From Deltaproteobacteria bacterium (GTDB lineage: Bacteria; Desulfobacterota; DSM-4660; Desulfatiglandales; Desulfatiglandaceae): 64,000 nt of DNA. The translations under genes were made by a program, and so were the position numbers. The stretch's first letter is position 1. Each line of letters begins with the position of its first letter. A model generated the notes under the pieces. It did no database searches and was not told where the DNA came from. It saw only the letters and a program-made list of their open reading frames with translations. Shown here one piece after another: positions 1-6,166 of this stretch. The DNA is taken from NCBI GenBank assembly GCA_019310785.1, contig JAFDDR010000006.1, positions 1-64,000 of the forward strand, written 5' to 3'.

Positions 1-289
1 ATATGCAGTAACTGCAGTCAAGAGGACAGTTTGTTGCCACATTGAGGATCTGATAACCGCAGCAGATATATTCCCTGGTTCCCGGGCACGGCTTTAGGAA
101 TTCGCCTTTATAGGGTAGTAAGTGCAGGGTCTCTTTCCCCATGTCCGTTTCATCATTTCTTGCCTTGGATTCGGTTTCTTCTATCATTTGGACTGGAACT
201 TCAGGTAGTCTCCGCAGGATTTGATCTGTGAATGCCTCCCCTGAAGCCCCCTTTTCAATAATCACCTTCTTTATGTTTAAGCCCTTCAT
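1..289 (-). CDS. SplB-like radical SAM protein (3' part outside window)
   Basis: This gene reads off the left edge, so only the first 96 residues are visible. The ATG (289-287) overlaps the TGA of the ParB-like gene upstream by one base, so the two are almost certainly translated together. Near the visible end lies CPLDCSYC, a CX3CX2C cluster that binds the 4Fe-4S centre of radical SAM enzymes. The residues around it resemble the spore photoproduct lyase / DNA photolyase-like radical SAM family (COG1533). Members of this family repair UV-induced thymine dimers in spore formers, but many homologues in non-spore-formers have no known function. The fold call is good. The substrate cannot be judged because most of the protein lies outside the window. 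Confidence 0.72.
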   Translation of the reverse strand, partial: MKGLNIKKVIIEKGASGEAFTDQILRRLPEVPVQMIEETESKARNDETDMGKETLHLLPYKGEFLKPCPGTREYICCGYQILNVATNCPLDCSYCI

Positions 290-1278
290 CAGGCACCTCT
301 CTCCCAGGGATTTCCAAGTTCCTCCAGGCCGTCTATTTTAAAAAGTCTCCCAATTTTCTCTCTCAATTCCTTTCCCTCTTTAAAAAGGATTTCGAGTCTA
401 TAATCGGGCGATTCAAAAAAGAGGGGTGGATCTATACGCACTCCTTTTGGGAGATTCAAACTTGAGACCATCTTGTTGAAGGTTTTTTCCGCTTCAGTCA
501 GTGTAGGGAAACGCTTGATTTTTAGCAATCTGAGAACTGCCTTGGCCTTCTGAGGAGTATTCAGGCTATTATTCAAAAATATATTTTTTAAAGTCTGCTC
601 TTTTAAGAGTTCAATGACCGGCACCCTAATTACATGCGAAATATCAACTATATAATTAATAAGTTGAATTTGTTGATTAATGTTAAACTTTAGATTTGAT
701 ATCACGCTGAAAACAGGGGATCTGGATACTGTTTCCATGTTTAGAAGCATTCTGACGACCTGTAATGATATATGGCCCTGGGCCAAATAAACCTTGATCT
801 TTTCATCCAGTTCGTTTTCAATTTTTAGAAAAAGATAGAATGTCTCTTCACGTGACGGAAGGTCTAACAAAGGCATATAATCTTTCATGATTTCATTTAG
901 CGAAAGATATGAGTTCAGATGACTCAAGGCCATTCCCTTTTCAACATTATTCAGACTTCTTGTTGCCAGGTTTTCGTGGAGGTTCAAAAGGAGACATTCC
1001 AGGGGAGAAAATTCGGATTCTTGAAGGACCCTGCAAGGTATATGGTCCCATTTTATGGATTTGGCCGCCTGAATCCTGCGATACCCGGAAACAACCTTCA
1101 GTGTGCCCTTCCCGTCTTCTATTAACAGGGGACTGTTAACCAGCCCAACCCTTTTTACGGACCGGACGAGGGGCTCGAGTTCAAATCCGAAACTCATACA
1201 ATAAGGTCCGGGCAAATCGTCAATTCTCTTCAAATCTATCGGTTGAATGTCGGCTGATGCGATTTTTTGGATATCCAT
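289..1278 (-). CDS. ParB N-terminal-domain protein
   Basis: The protein has 329 residues. Residues about 10-110 match the ParB/Srx-like N-terminal fold: a VVSGYRRIQAAK segment stands where chromosomal ParB proteins have GERRxRA, and an NLHENL stretch follows. ParB proteins bind CTP and parS DNA. This one has no ParA partner beside it, and its C-terminal two thirds are not recognisable as a standard ParB DNA-binding domain, although residues about 120-240 are helical. It overlaps the downstream radical SAM gene by one base, which suggests a shared task, possibly DNA recognition or repair, rather than chromosome segregation. The start gives a conventional N-terminus (MDIQKIASADIQPIDL). The domain call is secure; the role is unknown. 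Confidence 0.75.
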   Translation of the reverse strand: MDIQKIASADIQPIDLKRIDDLPGPYCMSFGFELEPLVRSVKRVGLVNSPLLIEDGKGTLKVVSGYRRIQAAKSIKWDHIPCRVLQESEFSPLECLLLNLHENLATRSLNNVEKGMALSHLNSYLSLNEIMKDYMPLLDLPSREETFYLFLKIENELDEKIKVYLAQGHISLQVVRMLLNMETVSRSPVFSVISNLKFNINQQIQLINYIVDISHVIRVPVIELLKEQTLKNIFLNNSLNTPQKAKAVLRLLKIKRFPTLTEAEKTFNKMVSSLNLPKGVRIDPPLFFESPDYRLEILFKEGKELREKIGRLFKIDGLEELGNPWERGA

Positions 1279-1606: not shown

Positions 1607-2800
1607 ATGCCGATGAAAAATACGTATAAACTGTCTTGCATGTTTTGGGTACTGGCTTTTTTGAGCATATTGATGGTCGGCACTGCCTTTGCCGATAACA
1701 TTAAGGTGGGAGTGCTCCTTCCGCTGACAGGGAAACTTGCAACGGCCGGCGAGATTGAACAGAATGCGTTTGTAATGGCAGTGGATGAAATAAATGCGGC
1801 GGGAGGTGTGGCCGGTAGGAAAATAGACCTGATTATTAAAGACACCGCTACCAACCCGCACGTGGGTGGTGCAGCTATTGAAAAATTGATATCACAGGAC
1901 AGGGTAGTCGTGCTGGGTGGTGGCTGTTCCAGCCCTGTGACCCGGACGACGGCTGCCGTGGCCCAGGAACGTGAAGTCCCCTTTCTGGTGAATACCGCTT
2001 CTGCCGACGAACTTACTGAAATGAAAAGAAAATATGTCTTCAGGCTCAACCCGCCGGCAAGCGAATATTCAGGGGCACTTGTTTCTTTCCTTACGAAAGT
2101 AGCCCGTATGAGGACTGCGGCTATACTGTATGAAAACACCGGTTTTGGGCGGTTCGGGGTAAAGGGCTTTTATAAAGTACGCAGGAAACTAAATTTCAGG
2201 GTGGTCTTGAAGAGAGGCTATGATGCAAGCACCCGTGACTTCAGGCCCCTGCTGGCCATGGTCAAGGACAGGAAACCCGACCTGGTCTACATAGTTTCTC
2301 ATAATATATTGGATGCTACCTTGCTGATGCAGCAGGCCGATGAATTGAGCCTCCATCCCAGGCTGTTCTTGGGAAGCGCTGCGGGTTTTACACTGCCTGA
2401 ATTCCAGGATTATGCAGGAGAGGCCTCGGAATATATCTATTCCAGTACTATCTGGTCCCCTTCAGTCTCCTACTCCGGCACCCGATCGTTCTATGACAGG
2501 TTTGACGCAAAATATGGCGCTCACCCGGATTACCATGGCGCCCAGGCATACGCGGCTATGTACGTGATTGCGGATTCATTGAAGAGGGCCAAATCCTTTG
2601 ATCCTGAGGACGTGAGAAATGCCCTGGCCGGGACTGACATGATGACAGTTTTTGGGCCGGTAAAGTTCGTTTCTTACGGAAAAAAGAAACAGCAGAATAG
2701 ACTTCCTACCTATTTAGTCCAGTGGATAAATGGAAAGCTTGAAATTGTCTGGCCCAGGGAGGTTGCTACGGCAAGGTACGTCTATCCTGCATCGAGGTAA
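1607..2800 (+). CDS. branched-chain/amide ABC transporter substrate-binding protein
   Basis: This is a periplasmic binding protein of the Leu/Ile/Val type (Peripla_BP_6, HAAT family), about 397 residues. A Sec signal peptide ends near the AFA/DN junction (residue 29). The mature part opens with IKVGVLLPLTGKLA, the usual start of LivJ-like proteins. A second in-frame ATG at 1613 gives a more typical signal peptide (MKNTYKLSC...) and may be the true start. It is followed after 105 bp by another binding protein and then livHMGF, so it may give the same permease a second substrate range. Ligands of this family include amino acids, amides, short-chain and aromatic acids; sequence alone does not say which. 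Confidence 0.88.
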   Translation: MPMKNTYKLSCMFWVLAFLSILMVGTAFADNIKVGVLLPLTGKLATAGEIEQNAFVMAVDEINAAGGVAGRKIDLIIKDTATNPHVGGAAIEKLISQDRVVVLGGGCSSPVTRTTAAVAQEREVPFLVNTASADELTEMKRKYVFRLNPPASEYSGALVSFLTKVARMRTAAILYENTGFGRFGVKGFYKVRRKLNFRVVLKRGYDASTRDFRPLLAMVKDRKPDLVYIVSHNILDATLLMQQADELSLHPRLFLGSAAGFTLPEFQDYAGEASEYIYSSTIWSPSVSYSGTRSFYDRFDAKYGAHPDYHGAQAYAAMYVIADSLKRAKSFDPEDVRNALAGTDMMTVFGPVKFVSYGKKKQQNRLPTYLVQWINGKLEIVWPREVATARYVYPASR

Positions 2801-2833
2801 AACAAGTATATCATTATCCCTTATGGCTTTGTA

Positions 2834-2862
2834 TTGACACCAATTTTTGTCTATAGTTTAAT
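2834..2862 (+). promoter_or_regulatory. sigma-70-type promoter before the second solute-binding gene
   Basis: A perfect -35 box TTGACA (2834-2839), a 17-base spacer and TTTAAT (2857-2862) lie about 44 bases before the ATG at 2906. The second binding protein and livHMGF can therefore probably be transcribed independently of the first binding protein. Confidence 0.55.
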
Positions 2863-2905
2863 ACCGTAGCTTAAAAACCAAATAATCCTAACAGGGAGGT
2901 ATGTC

Positions 2906-4189
2906 ATGAAAAATCTACCAAAATTACTGTTTTTGATCATTGCCCTTTCTTGTTTCATTTTAACAGGTTTTTCGATCGCCGAGGCAAAATCGGCAGGTAA
3001 GATCGTGATCGGTCATCCTGCTTGCCTTTCGGGAAAGTACGCAAAGGCAGGTGAACAGGCAGTTGGTGGAATAAAAGCTTGTATCAATTGGGTAAATAAT
3101 GTCTATGGTGGCGTGAAAGTAGCAGGGAAGAAAGTTCCTCTTGAATATAAGTACTATGATTGTGAGTCAAAAAAAGAGGCCGTCACAAGTCTGATCGGCC
3201 GGCTGATTACGGTTAACAAAGTGAATGTTGTTTTCTCCGCATATAGCTCCGGTTTAACTCTTCGCGGCGCCCCGGTGACCGAGAGTCATCAGATGCTCTA
3301 TATGGATCATGGCGGCGCTAATAACAAGATATTCAGGCAGGGTTTCAGATATATTGTCCAGACCATTGGGCCTGCCACAAGCTATCATCAGGGAACGCTC
3401 GATATGATTCATAAAATTGACCCTAAGGCCAAGAAAGTTGCACTGGCCTATGAAGATTCAGAGTTCGCAAAGATGGTAATGCATGGAGCAGAAAAACACG
3501 CTAAAAAGCTTGGGTTTAATATTGTCTTTAAGCGTACCTATCCCAAAGGCGTAACAGACTTAACCCCCCTGCTCTCAGCTTTGAAAGGGAGTAAACCGGA
3601 TTTCACCCTCGGCGGCGGGCACTTTGAAGATGGCCAGCTCTTTAACCGGCAGATGTCTGATCTGGACATAGATACCAATGCCCTGTCACTGATAGCGGCA
3701 GCGACACTGCCAGCCTTTTATAAGGCTTTAACCAGTTTGGCAGAAGGCGTCATGGGCCCTTCACATTGGGAATATGGTGTAAAATACTCGGCTGATGAGG
3801 CAAAGAATGTGGGGCTGGATTGGATCGGCCCGGACCAGGATGAATTTGTAGCCCTTTTTAAAAAGGCCGTGGGCAAAGATATTATCCCGGATTATCATGC
3901 CGCTGAAGCCGGAGCTCAGGTGTTGGCCTATGTATTAGGAGTAGAGAAGGCAAATTCCCTTGATTCGGATAAAGTAAGAGCGGCCCTTGGCAATCTGAAG
4001 TTTATGTCTTTCTATGGGGGCTGGGATGTTGACGATACAGGACTTCAGGTCGGCCATTCTATGGTAGATGTTCAGTGGCAGGGAGGCAAAAGGGTCATTG
4101 TATGGCCCGAGGAAGCCCAAACCGGTAAGCCCTGCTATCCCATGCCCACATTTGCAGAAAAAGCAAAGGGGAAGGTAGCGATCCCGTAA
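2906..4189 (+). CDS. branched-chain/amide ABC transporter substrate-binding protein
   Basis: The protein has 427 residues and a signal peptide ending near IAEA (residues 1-27). The mature part begins GKIVIGHPACLSGKYAKAGEQ and belongs to the Leu/Ile/Val-binding (HAAT) family. A strong ribosome binding site (GGGAGG at about 2894) precedes the ATG, and the gene has its own promoter-like sequence, in keeping with the high expression usual for binding proteins. It stands directly before livHMGF and is the most likely main partner of that permease. It is only distantly similar to the preceding binding protein. The transported solute is not identifiable from sequence. Confidence 0.9.
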   Translation: MKNLPKLLFLIIALSCFILTGFSIAEAKSAGKIVIGHPACLSGKYAKAGEQAVGGIKACINWVNNVYGGVKVAGKKVPLEYKYYDCESKKEAVTSLIGRLITVNKVNVVFSAYSSGLTLRGAPVTESHQMLYMDHGGANNKIFRQGFRYIVQTIGPATSYHQGTLDMIHKIDPKAKKVALAYEDSEFAKMVMHGAEKHAKKLGFNIVFKRTYPKGVTDLTPLLSALKGSKPDFTLGGGHFEDGQLFNRQMSDLDIDTNALSLIAAATLPAFYKALTSLAEGVMGPSHWEYGVKYSADEAKNVGLDWIGPDQDEFVALFKKAVGKDIIPDYHAAEAGAQVLAYVLGVEKANSLDSDKVRAALGNLKFMSFYGGWDVDDTGLQVGHSMVDVQWQGGKRVIVWPEEAQTGKPCYPMPTFAEKAKGKVAIP

Positions 4190-4280
4190 TCACTACAAAC
4201 CGTGGGGATCTCCTTTAGACCAGCCAAGGGTTTTAGTGGAGGTCCCTGTCAGTATCCTGAAGCGAAGAAGGAAAACAGAG

Positions 4281-5168
4281 ATGATTGGAGCGCAGTTAGG
4301 CGGTAATTTGATCCAGGGCCTTGTTCTGGGCGCTGTTTATGGTATGGCCACCATGGGTCTTAGTCTTATCTTTGGTGTTCTGAAAGTTGTTAATGTGGGA
4401 CACGGGGCCTTTATCATGGTAGGGGCATTTGTATCCCTCTGGCTTTTTAATTCCCTCGGAATCAACCCGATTCTTGCTGTCCCCGTTGCCTTTGGTGTAG
4501 GTATCGGCCTGGGATTCCTGTTTTACTATACAACCATGCAAAGGTTGATTAAGGCACCGGAACTTGCAACTCTGCTCGCAACTTTTTCCTTGGGTATCCT
4601 ACTCGAAGAGCTTGTAAAACTCATCTTCGGATCAGAGTTCCGCGGCTTTAACTGGGTTGTTGGCAAGATTGATATTGGTGTAACGGTTCTGCCCATGTCA
4701 AAATTGTATGCCTGTATCGGCAGTGTGATTATCGCCCTTCTTCTCTACTTGTGGTTCAACAAGACACGGGCAGGGTCAGCAGTGCGAAGTGTTGTTGAGG
4801 ACAGTGAAGGCGCAAGGGTTTGTGGAGTAAATGTTGGGAGAGCCTATGCCCTGAGCTTTGCATTGGGGATTGGCATAACTGTTACGAGTGGCGTTCTTCT
4901 CACCATGTTTATCCCGGTTGGCATCAATCCCTATATGGGAGGAGGATATACGCTGAAGGCCTTCGTTATCGCTGTCTTGGGCGGCCTTTCATCCCCGTAC
5001 GGCGCTTTTTTCGGTGGATTGGCCTTTGGGCTGATTGAGAATGGATCCTATACGCTATTTGCCTTAATTCCCGGGGTGGAACCGTTTGCCCTGACCCGGT
5101 TTATATCTTTCGTAATGTTGCTGGTAATACTCCTGGTTAAACCGACTGGACTTCTGAGCTCAAAATGA
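4281..5168 (+). CDS. livH: LivH-type ABC transporter permease
   Basis: This is an inner-membrane permease of the HAAT family with eight or so hydrophobic segments, including the LivH hallmark GLVLGAVYGMATMGLSLIFGV near the N-terminus. A longer reading from GTG at 4236 is possible but adds a charged 15-residue leader with no family support. The ATG at 4281 is preceded by an AGAAGGAAAA stretch and gives the normal LivH N-terminus (MIGAQLGGNLIQ). The gene overlaps livM by four bases (ATGA), so the two permease subunits are translationally coupled. Confidence 0.92.
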   Translation: MIGAQLGGNLIQGLVLGAVYGMATMGLSLIFGVLKVVNVGHGAFIMVGAFVSLWLFNSLGINPILAVPVAFGVGIGLGFLFYYTTMQRLIKAPELATLLATFSLGILLEELVKLIFGSEFRGFNWVVGKIDIGVTVLPMSKLYACIGSVIIALLLYLWFNKTRAGSAVRSVVEDSEGARVCGVNVGRAYALSFALGIGITVTSGVLLTMFIPVGINPYMGGGYTLKAFVIAVLGGLSSPYGAFFGGLAFGLIENGSYTLFALIPGVEPFALTRFISFVMLLVILLVKPTGLLSSK

Positions 5169-6166
5169 AAAAAGAAAGCACAAATTACTATCCTTTAATA
5201 CCCGTATTTGTAGCATACCTAATCCTTTTTTTGATCGGCCAAAACATTTCGGGGATGTGGCAATTGGTGGCCATGCTCCTTTTCTACTGCGCCATGGGAC
5301 AGGCATTTAATATCTTTCTCGGCATGACCGGTTACGTGGATTTTGGTTATGTTGCTTTTATGGGTGTTGGCACGTATGGTATGGCTTTGGCAATCACGCA
5401 CCTTGCCCATTTTGAAGGACTCGGAAAAGGAATTATTGTTATCGGTTTTGTCCTGGCATTAGTGATGTCCACTCTGTTGTCTATGGCTGTGGGGGCAGTA
5501 GCACTGAGACTCAGGGGCGCTTACTTCGCCATCGCCACAATAGGAGTAAATGAAGGGTTCCGTTTTTTTATTGAAGGGGCAAGGATCTGGAATGGTTCTG
5601 AAGGCTTAATATTTACCGCCCAACTTAACCAGATCCTTGGAAGAGAATCTGCCAGCGCTTTAATGACCTATTGGGCTGATATCATGGTCCTTATCATTGC
5701 GGCATTGGCTGCTCTTGTAACCTTATATTACATGAGAAGCAAAATCGGCTATGCACTGACAGCGCTGAGGGAAGATGAAGACGCTGCAAAGGTTATGGGA
5801 ATCAATGTTACAAAATACAAGATCATAGCCTTTATCACAAGCGCCTGTTTCGCGGGTCTGGTGGGAGCTGCCTCATGGGCCTTGAAAACCCCTTATGTCT
5901 TCCCGCCGGAGGTTTTTGAGATTCATTATACCATAGAAGCCATTATTATTGTCCTCCTTGGTGGCGCAGGCACCCTTCTCGGTCCTGTTGCTGGCGGGCT
6001 TATCTATGGCCTCTCTAAATACTACCTCTCTATATTCATGCCGGGATTTCAGTTGCTTATTTTTGCGCCAATTATCATCATTATTATCATTTTATTCCCG
6101 GAGGGAGTGATCGGAATGTTAAAAAACAGGGTGAAGGATTCAGTTCTGGCAAAGTTTATAATTTAG
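5165..6166 (+). CDS. livM: LivM-type ABC transporter permease
   Basis: This is the second permease subunit, 333 residues, with about nine hydrophobic segments. It has the conserved LivM elements GQAFNIFLGMTGYVDFGYVAF and, near the C-terminus, LLGGAGTLLGPVAGGLIYG. It pairs with LivH to form the membrane channel. Its start overlaps livH by four bases and its stop lies 8 bp before livG, so all four genes form one operon. The C-terminus runs into a very isoleucine-rich segment (about residues 300-312), a membrane span typical of the family. Confidence 0.92.
   Translation: MKKESTNYYPLIPVFVAYLILFLIGQNISGMWQLVAMLLFYCAMGQAFNIFLGMTGYVDFGYVAFMGVGTYGMALAITHLAHFEGLGKGIIVIGFVLALVMSTLLSMAVGAVALRLRGAYFAIATIGVNEGFRFFIEGARIWNGSEGLIFTAQLNQILGRESASALMTYWADIMVLIIAALAALVTLYYMRSKIGYALTALREDEDAAKVMGINVTKYKIIAFITSACFAGLVGAASWALKTPYVFPPEVFEIHYTIEAIIIVLLGGAGTLLGPVAGGLIYGLSKYYLSIFMPGFQLLIFAPIIIIIIILFPEGVIGMLKNRVKDSVLAKFII

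Follow-up and report, generated by a model that had tools for sequence, protein, structure and literature searches.

A conserved gene pair encoding a ParB-like protein and a spore photoproduct lyase-like radical-SAM enzyme: a possible modification module

The window, i.e., the whole stretch of 64,000 nucleotides that was analyzed, starts with the first base of contig C107 and opens with two genes on the minus strand. The ParB-like gene (positions 289 to 1278) is an ORF that codes for a 329-aa protein with ParB/Noc homology. It is followed by a radical-SAM gene of the spore photoproduct lyase (SPL)-like type, of which only the first 96 codons (positions 2 to 289) are found before the frame runs open at the window edge. 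The sequence-only reading had noted a TGATG stop/start overlap of these genes, which is indeed there (positions 287 to 291, minus strand, bases 291 to 287) and amounts to 1 bp. It had also expected the radical-SAM gene to continue past the window: contig C299 begins with the same 114 bases as the window (positions 1 to 114), and joining C107 with C299 results in an uninterrupted complete gene for a 363-aa protein, the remainder being encoded at positions 1 to 917 of C299. On the other side of the pair, a REP-like inverted repeat, recognized by eye (GTCATTCCGACGAAAGCCGGAATCC ... GGATTTCGCCGGGGTGAC, positions 1425 to 1515), separates the ParB-like gene from the divergently oriented ABC substrate-binding gene, and the ORFs at positions 1607 to 6166 read as ABC substrate-binding proteins and permeases of the branched-chain amino acid type.

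Conservation of the pair in relatives, on which the sequence-only reading depended, was borne out by linkage across both the class and the phylum. A class-wide search showed that most genomes of the window's own class encode the ParB-like protein at full length, and the SPL-like gene directly adjoins the ParB-like gene, on the same strand, in 51 of the 52 loci examined there. In the sole exception, locus L063 of genome G019, the stretch fetched contains the ParB-like gene without an SPL-like one. The junction could be measured in 49 class loci and is an overlap of 4 bp in 24 of them and of 1 bp in another 13 (37 of 49 together). Among 378 genomes of the phylum outside this class, strong scores were obtained for both proteins in 186, for the ParB-like protein only in 6, for the SPL-like protein only in 27, and for neither in 159; these counts precede the corrections that came from reopening low-scoring or diverged genomes. 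When 16 genomes, picked for a low ParB-like score or a diverged SPL-like protein, were reopened with a broader profile, a ParB-like ORF was found at the SPL-like gene in 15, so that the low scores mostly reflect divergence rather than absence. Of the 110 pairs in the phylum that could be placed, 68, which span 22 families, are adjacent, and 42 are unlinked yet co-present. On the tree, adjacency is widespread and separations are scattered, and the genes that flank the pair differ from lineage to lineage. Fisher p-values for co-occurrence take no account of shared ancestry and cannot be read as probabilities, and genes core to the same large clades would correlate as well; linkage amid changing neighborhoods carries more weight than co-occurrence.

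Several neighbors were considered as further parts of the system and rejected. The hbd, response regulator, miaB, and nadK genes downstream represent class-level synteny and are not constant. Upstream, MurJ (9 class loci) and purC, the gene for SAICAR synthetase (16 loci), are lineage-level neighbors; purC immediately precedes the ParB-like gene in L113, L116 to L121, L126, L128, L129, L132, L133, L137, L140, L141, and L143. A mobile-element origin was likewise rejected: plasmids contained no ParB-like match, and plasmids and phages gave only distant SPL-family matches.

The ParB homology proposed from the sequence alone is real and covers the N-terminal domain and the HTH region. The ParB_N model matches all 29 aligned relatives, although the window protein itself, at 22 bits, stays below the Pfam cut-off of 26.3. 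The family profile retrieves Noc/ParB structures (E = 5.5e-17), hhalign aligns the protein with the source genome's own ParB at 99%, and the best Foldseek match is Spo0J. That chromosomal ParB is a separate protein, encoded on contig C296 with parA upstream, whereas the ParB-like gene, unlike those of ParB/Spo0J and Noc, has no parA beside it. The N-terminal domain of the CTPase fold (aa 12 to 121, positions 916 to 1245, minus strand) has a partly degenerate nucleotide pocket. In Caulobacter numbering, the equivalents of Ser74, Gly79, Gly101, Arg103, Arg104, Glu135, and Asn136 are largely retained in the window's class, but Gln58, Arg60, Glu102, and Arg139 have been replaced. The first motif, Gln-Pro-Arg in Noc, is Gly-Pro-Tyr in the window protein (Gln58 is Gly), and the Arg139 equivalent, compared with the source genome's own ParB, is Thr. 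The GERR motif reads GYRR (aa 65 to 68, positions 1075 to 1086, minus strand), with the chromosomal ParB having Glu at this place; the position of the catalytic Glu is mostly occupied by Tyr or Phe, and only 2 of 63 ParB-like proteins have Glu. These motifs drift in other families. The region equivalent to the HTH (aa 124 to 152, positions 823 to 909, minus strand) has a net charge of -2 and is not basic; the mean charge of this segment is -0.2 in the ParB-like proteins versus +3.4 in true ParBs. At five loci from four families (L166, L168, L172, L177, and L207), only model positions ~154 to 323 are left of the ParB-like protein, and its gene still lies beside the SPL-like gene. Thus, what stays constant is the region downstream of the HTH, and the CTPase domain is dispensable. 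In the window this region, kept in the shortened SPL-linked versions and proposed to be the partner-binding part, comprises aa 154 to 327 (positions 298 to 819, minus strand). Compared with ParB/Spo0J and Noc, the ParB-like protein has an extended C-terminal region. The notion of a full-length ParB paralogue retaining the ParB dimer domain did not gain significant support: the hhalign match is in register, with E = 0.0097 but a probability of 4%. AlphaFold models of both proteins, from shallow alignments, reached pLDDT values of 62 and 48, too low for active-site geometry.

The complete radical-SAM protein belongs to the SPL superfamily, as the sequence-only reading had suggested from its first 96 codons; its assignment as a photoproduct lyase fared worse, given that the catalytic Cys and Tyr are gone in every member examined. 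The PF20903 (SPL) and Radical_SAM models match all 28 SPL-like relatives (the L003 protein scores 92.8 bits against PF20903, with a Pfam gathering score of 27), and the SPL-like protein is the only one in the source genome above the PF20903 cut-off. The family profile retrieves the SPL structures from G. thermodenitrificans (E = 3.4e-29). With SplB (TIGR04070; PF20903; PDB 4fhc-4rh1), the SPL-like proteins share a radical-SAM core with CxxxCxYC, ~280 alignable residues, and several Arg, Lys, and Asn positions. Arg268, Arg300, and Arg306 of the SPL C-terminal region are conserved in them; their C-terminal tail is a different one. The radical-SAM CxxxCxxC motif is present in all 77 SPL-like proteins and reads CPLDCSYC in the window (Cys88, Cys92, and Cys95; positions 5 to 28, minus strand), followed by Ile where SPL has Tyr. 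In the SPL mechanism, the hydrogen donor is Cys141 (Bs) or Cys140 (Gt), and Tyr99/Tyr98 lies in the radical-return path (PMC3742179). The donor position is Glu in 76 of the 77 SPL-like proteins and Gln in the remaining one, and the relay position is Ile, Val, Phe, or Ala in all 77. His229 and Asp231, in the sequence HFDP, stand where the SPL active site (xxAP) has hydrophobic and small residues. The SPL-like proteins also contain four Cys residues that SplB lacks: Cys68, Cys76, and Cys77 in the CPGTREYICC segment (positions 59 to 88, minus strand) and Cys329, a set predicted to bind an auxiliary Fe-S cluster. Cys68, Cys77, and Cys329 are found in all 77 proteins and Cys76 in 73; the four others, which together make up one clade, have their fourth Cys in a CPC arrangement. 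A single branch (support 93/89) parts the SPL-like proteins from SPL and from the TIGR03886 proteins of non-spore-formers, such as Nostoc and Aureimonas. The latter are members of the same superfamily, but in both TIGR03886-type proteins that were examined the Cys and the Tyr are retained and none of the extra Cys residues occurs.

A third gene codes for a soluble GT2 glycosyltransferase of a single ortholog-like group (11 aligned members, 46 to 83% identity to the first). In 19 sampled loci outside the class, it immediately precedes the ParB-like gene. Such GT2 genes, often overlapping the ParB-like gene or otherwise co-occurring with the pair and usually present in a single copy, were recorded at C321:532-1386 of the source genome (G000) and in L105, L106, L110 to L112, L114, L122, L135, L136, L168, L172, L173, L175 to L181, and L206. 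At E ≤ 1e-60, GT2 was detected in 198 of the 213 genomes with an SPL-like protein (15 are without it) and in 13 genomes without one, and all three proteins are encoded in 174 genomes; this co-occurrence is confounded by clade, whereas the overlapping gene order is free of that confounding. In the window's class, GT2 adjoins other genes, and the source genome has it on contig C321, away from the pair, next to a gene that, as in some relatives, looks by eye like an IspH fusion. GT2 is likely a third member of the system across the phylum, judging from gene order and co-occurrence, so the product or the substrate may carry a sugar. In one family (L173:9796-11436, L175:5978-7519, and L178:10508-12025), GT2 is extended at its N terminus by a further domain of ~220 aa that has no Pfam hit and by eye resembles nucleoside phosphorylase-like proteins.

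With slightly better than even confidence, these genes can be interpreted as a radical-SAM modification module that consists of an SPL-superfamily enzyme with an auxiliary Fe-S cluster, an accessory subunit derived from ParB, and, likely, GT2. The two products of the pair would form one functional unit, probably as a complex. The enzyme is expected to cleave SAM, and the 5'-deoxyadenosyl radical would drive a reaction other than cleavage of the spore photoproduct, because the Cys-Tyr relay for hydrogen return is missing and the place of the Cys is taken by a near-invariant Glu. With its part downstream of the HTH, the accessory subunit could bind or position the enzyme or its substrate, and the ParB N-terminal domain could serve as an optional module for sensing or nucleic acid handling.

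The sequence-only reading had envisaged a ParB-like clamp that, under the control of CTP, sits on DNA and delivers the radical-SAM enzyme for repair or base modification. The two conditions that would have refuted it, a pair absent from relatives and an enzyme unrelated to SplB, did not hold, while its labels of photoproduct lyase and DNA-binding CTP switch have been weakened. This guided enzyme now appears rather unlikely and owes the probability it retains mostly to the fact that SPL relatives act on DNA, in line with the three conserved Arg residues. True homology to ParB/Noc in the N-terminal domain and HTH region, along with the pocket residues largely kept in the class, agrees with it. 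So does the behavior of the Caulobacter E102A variant, which binds CTP and clamps DNA without hydrolysis; R60A and R139A bind poorly (PMC8367383), and it is these two Arg residues, besides Gln58 and the hydrolytic Glu, that have been replaced. Loss of the HTH charge and motif drift in other families also argue against a DNA clamp, and the dispensability of the CTPase/HTH half, given the five loci that keep the linkage without it, weakens this reading further.

To the same limited extent, the radical-SAM enzyme might modify the ParB-like protein itself or else an intermediate made with GT2, either a glycan or a nucleotide sugar. The constant 1:1 linkage fits the former, as do the residues that are invariant in the C-terminal part of this protein, but its most conserved positions are dispersed along the protein and do not form a short motif resembling a core peptide. 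The latter is consistent with the GT2 partner and with the use of GT2 enzymes in other radical-SAM pathways (mycofactocin and arsenosugar models are among the GT2 hits), but the pair is not constantly accompanied by further glycan genes.

SPL chemistry acts on the thymine methyl and C6. A markedly less probable proposal is anaerobic hypermodification of nucleic acids, in which the SPL-derived enzyme would functionalize a base, GT2 would add the sugar, and the ParB-derived subunit would place the enzyme, a three-protein system that could be likened to base J as its oxygen-independent counterpart.

It is more doubtful still that the SPL-like protein works as a lyase of the spore photoproduct or another DNA lesion, with the ParB-like gene as its regulator. 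Similarity to PF20903 and TIGR04070 speaks for it, as does the small regulator gene splA that adjoins true SPL genes and was seen in the B. velezensis locus. However, both residues of the hydrogen relay are gone in all members, HFDP replaces xxAP, the score of 105.7 bits falls far short of the TIGR04070 equivalog cut-off of 400, and no SASP gene was found in the source genome. The SPL-like proteins are thus unlikely SP lyases, and a role in spores or UV repair was rejected on the catalytic residues and the lack of the SASP gene. Least probable of all is that two unrelated housekeeping genes share an operon by descent: 42 of the 110 placeable pairs are unlinked, as the genes are in some families, but linkage persists where other neighbors differ, co-presence persists without linkage, and stop/start overlaps are common.

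As a modification module, the system would show that the ParB fold has been recruited as an enzyme subunit. Over half of the genomes sampled in the phylum encode a member of the SPL-like subfamily, for which the family name alone would indicate a DNA repair lyase; transferring the name "spore photoproduct lyase" would mislabel these proteins in hundreds of genomes. The literature searched assigns no function to this subfamily with its ParB-derived partner and GT2; the search returned no paper linking SPL, radical SAM, and ParB and nothing on the pair. The ParB-like proteins resemble the orphan proteins of the ParB-CTPase fold in that this fold occurs outside parAB. A survey of such orphans (PMC12704722) relied on PF02195 and TIGR00180 at curated cut-offs, both of which lie above the scores of the window protein; neither radical SAM nor photoproduct appears in the main text of that survey. 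Finally, Fusobacterium vincentii encodes a distant SPL-family protein (L148:2501-3346) with a long fused N-terminal extension, which has no Pfam hit, and with Tyr at the position of the SPL catalytic Cys.
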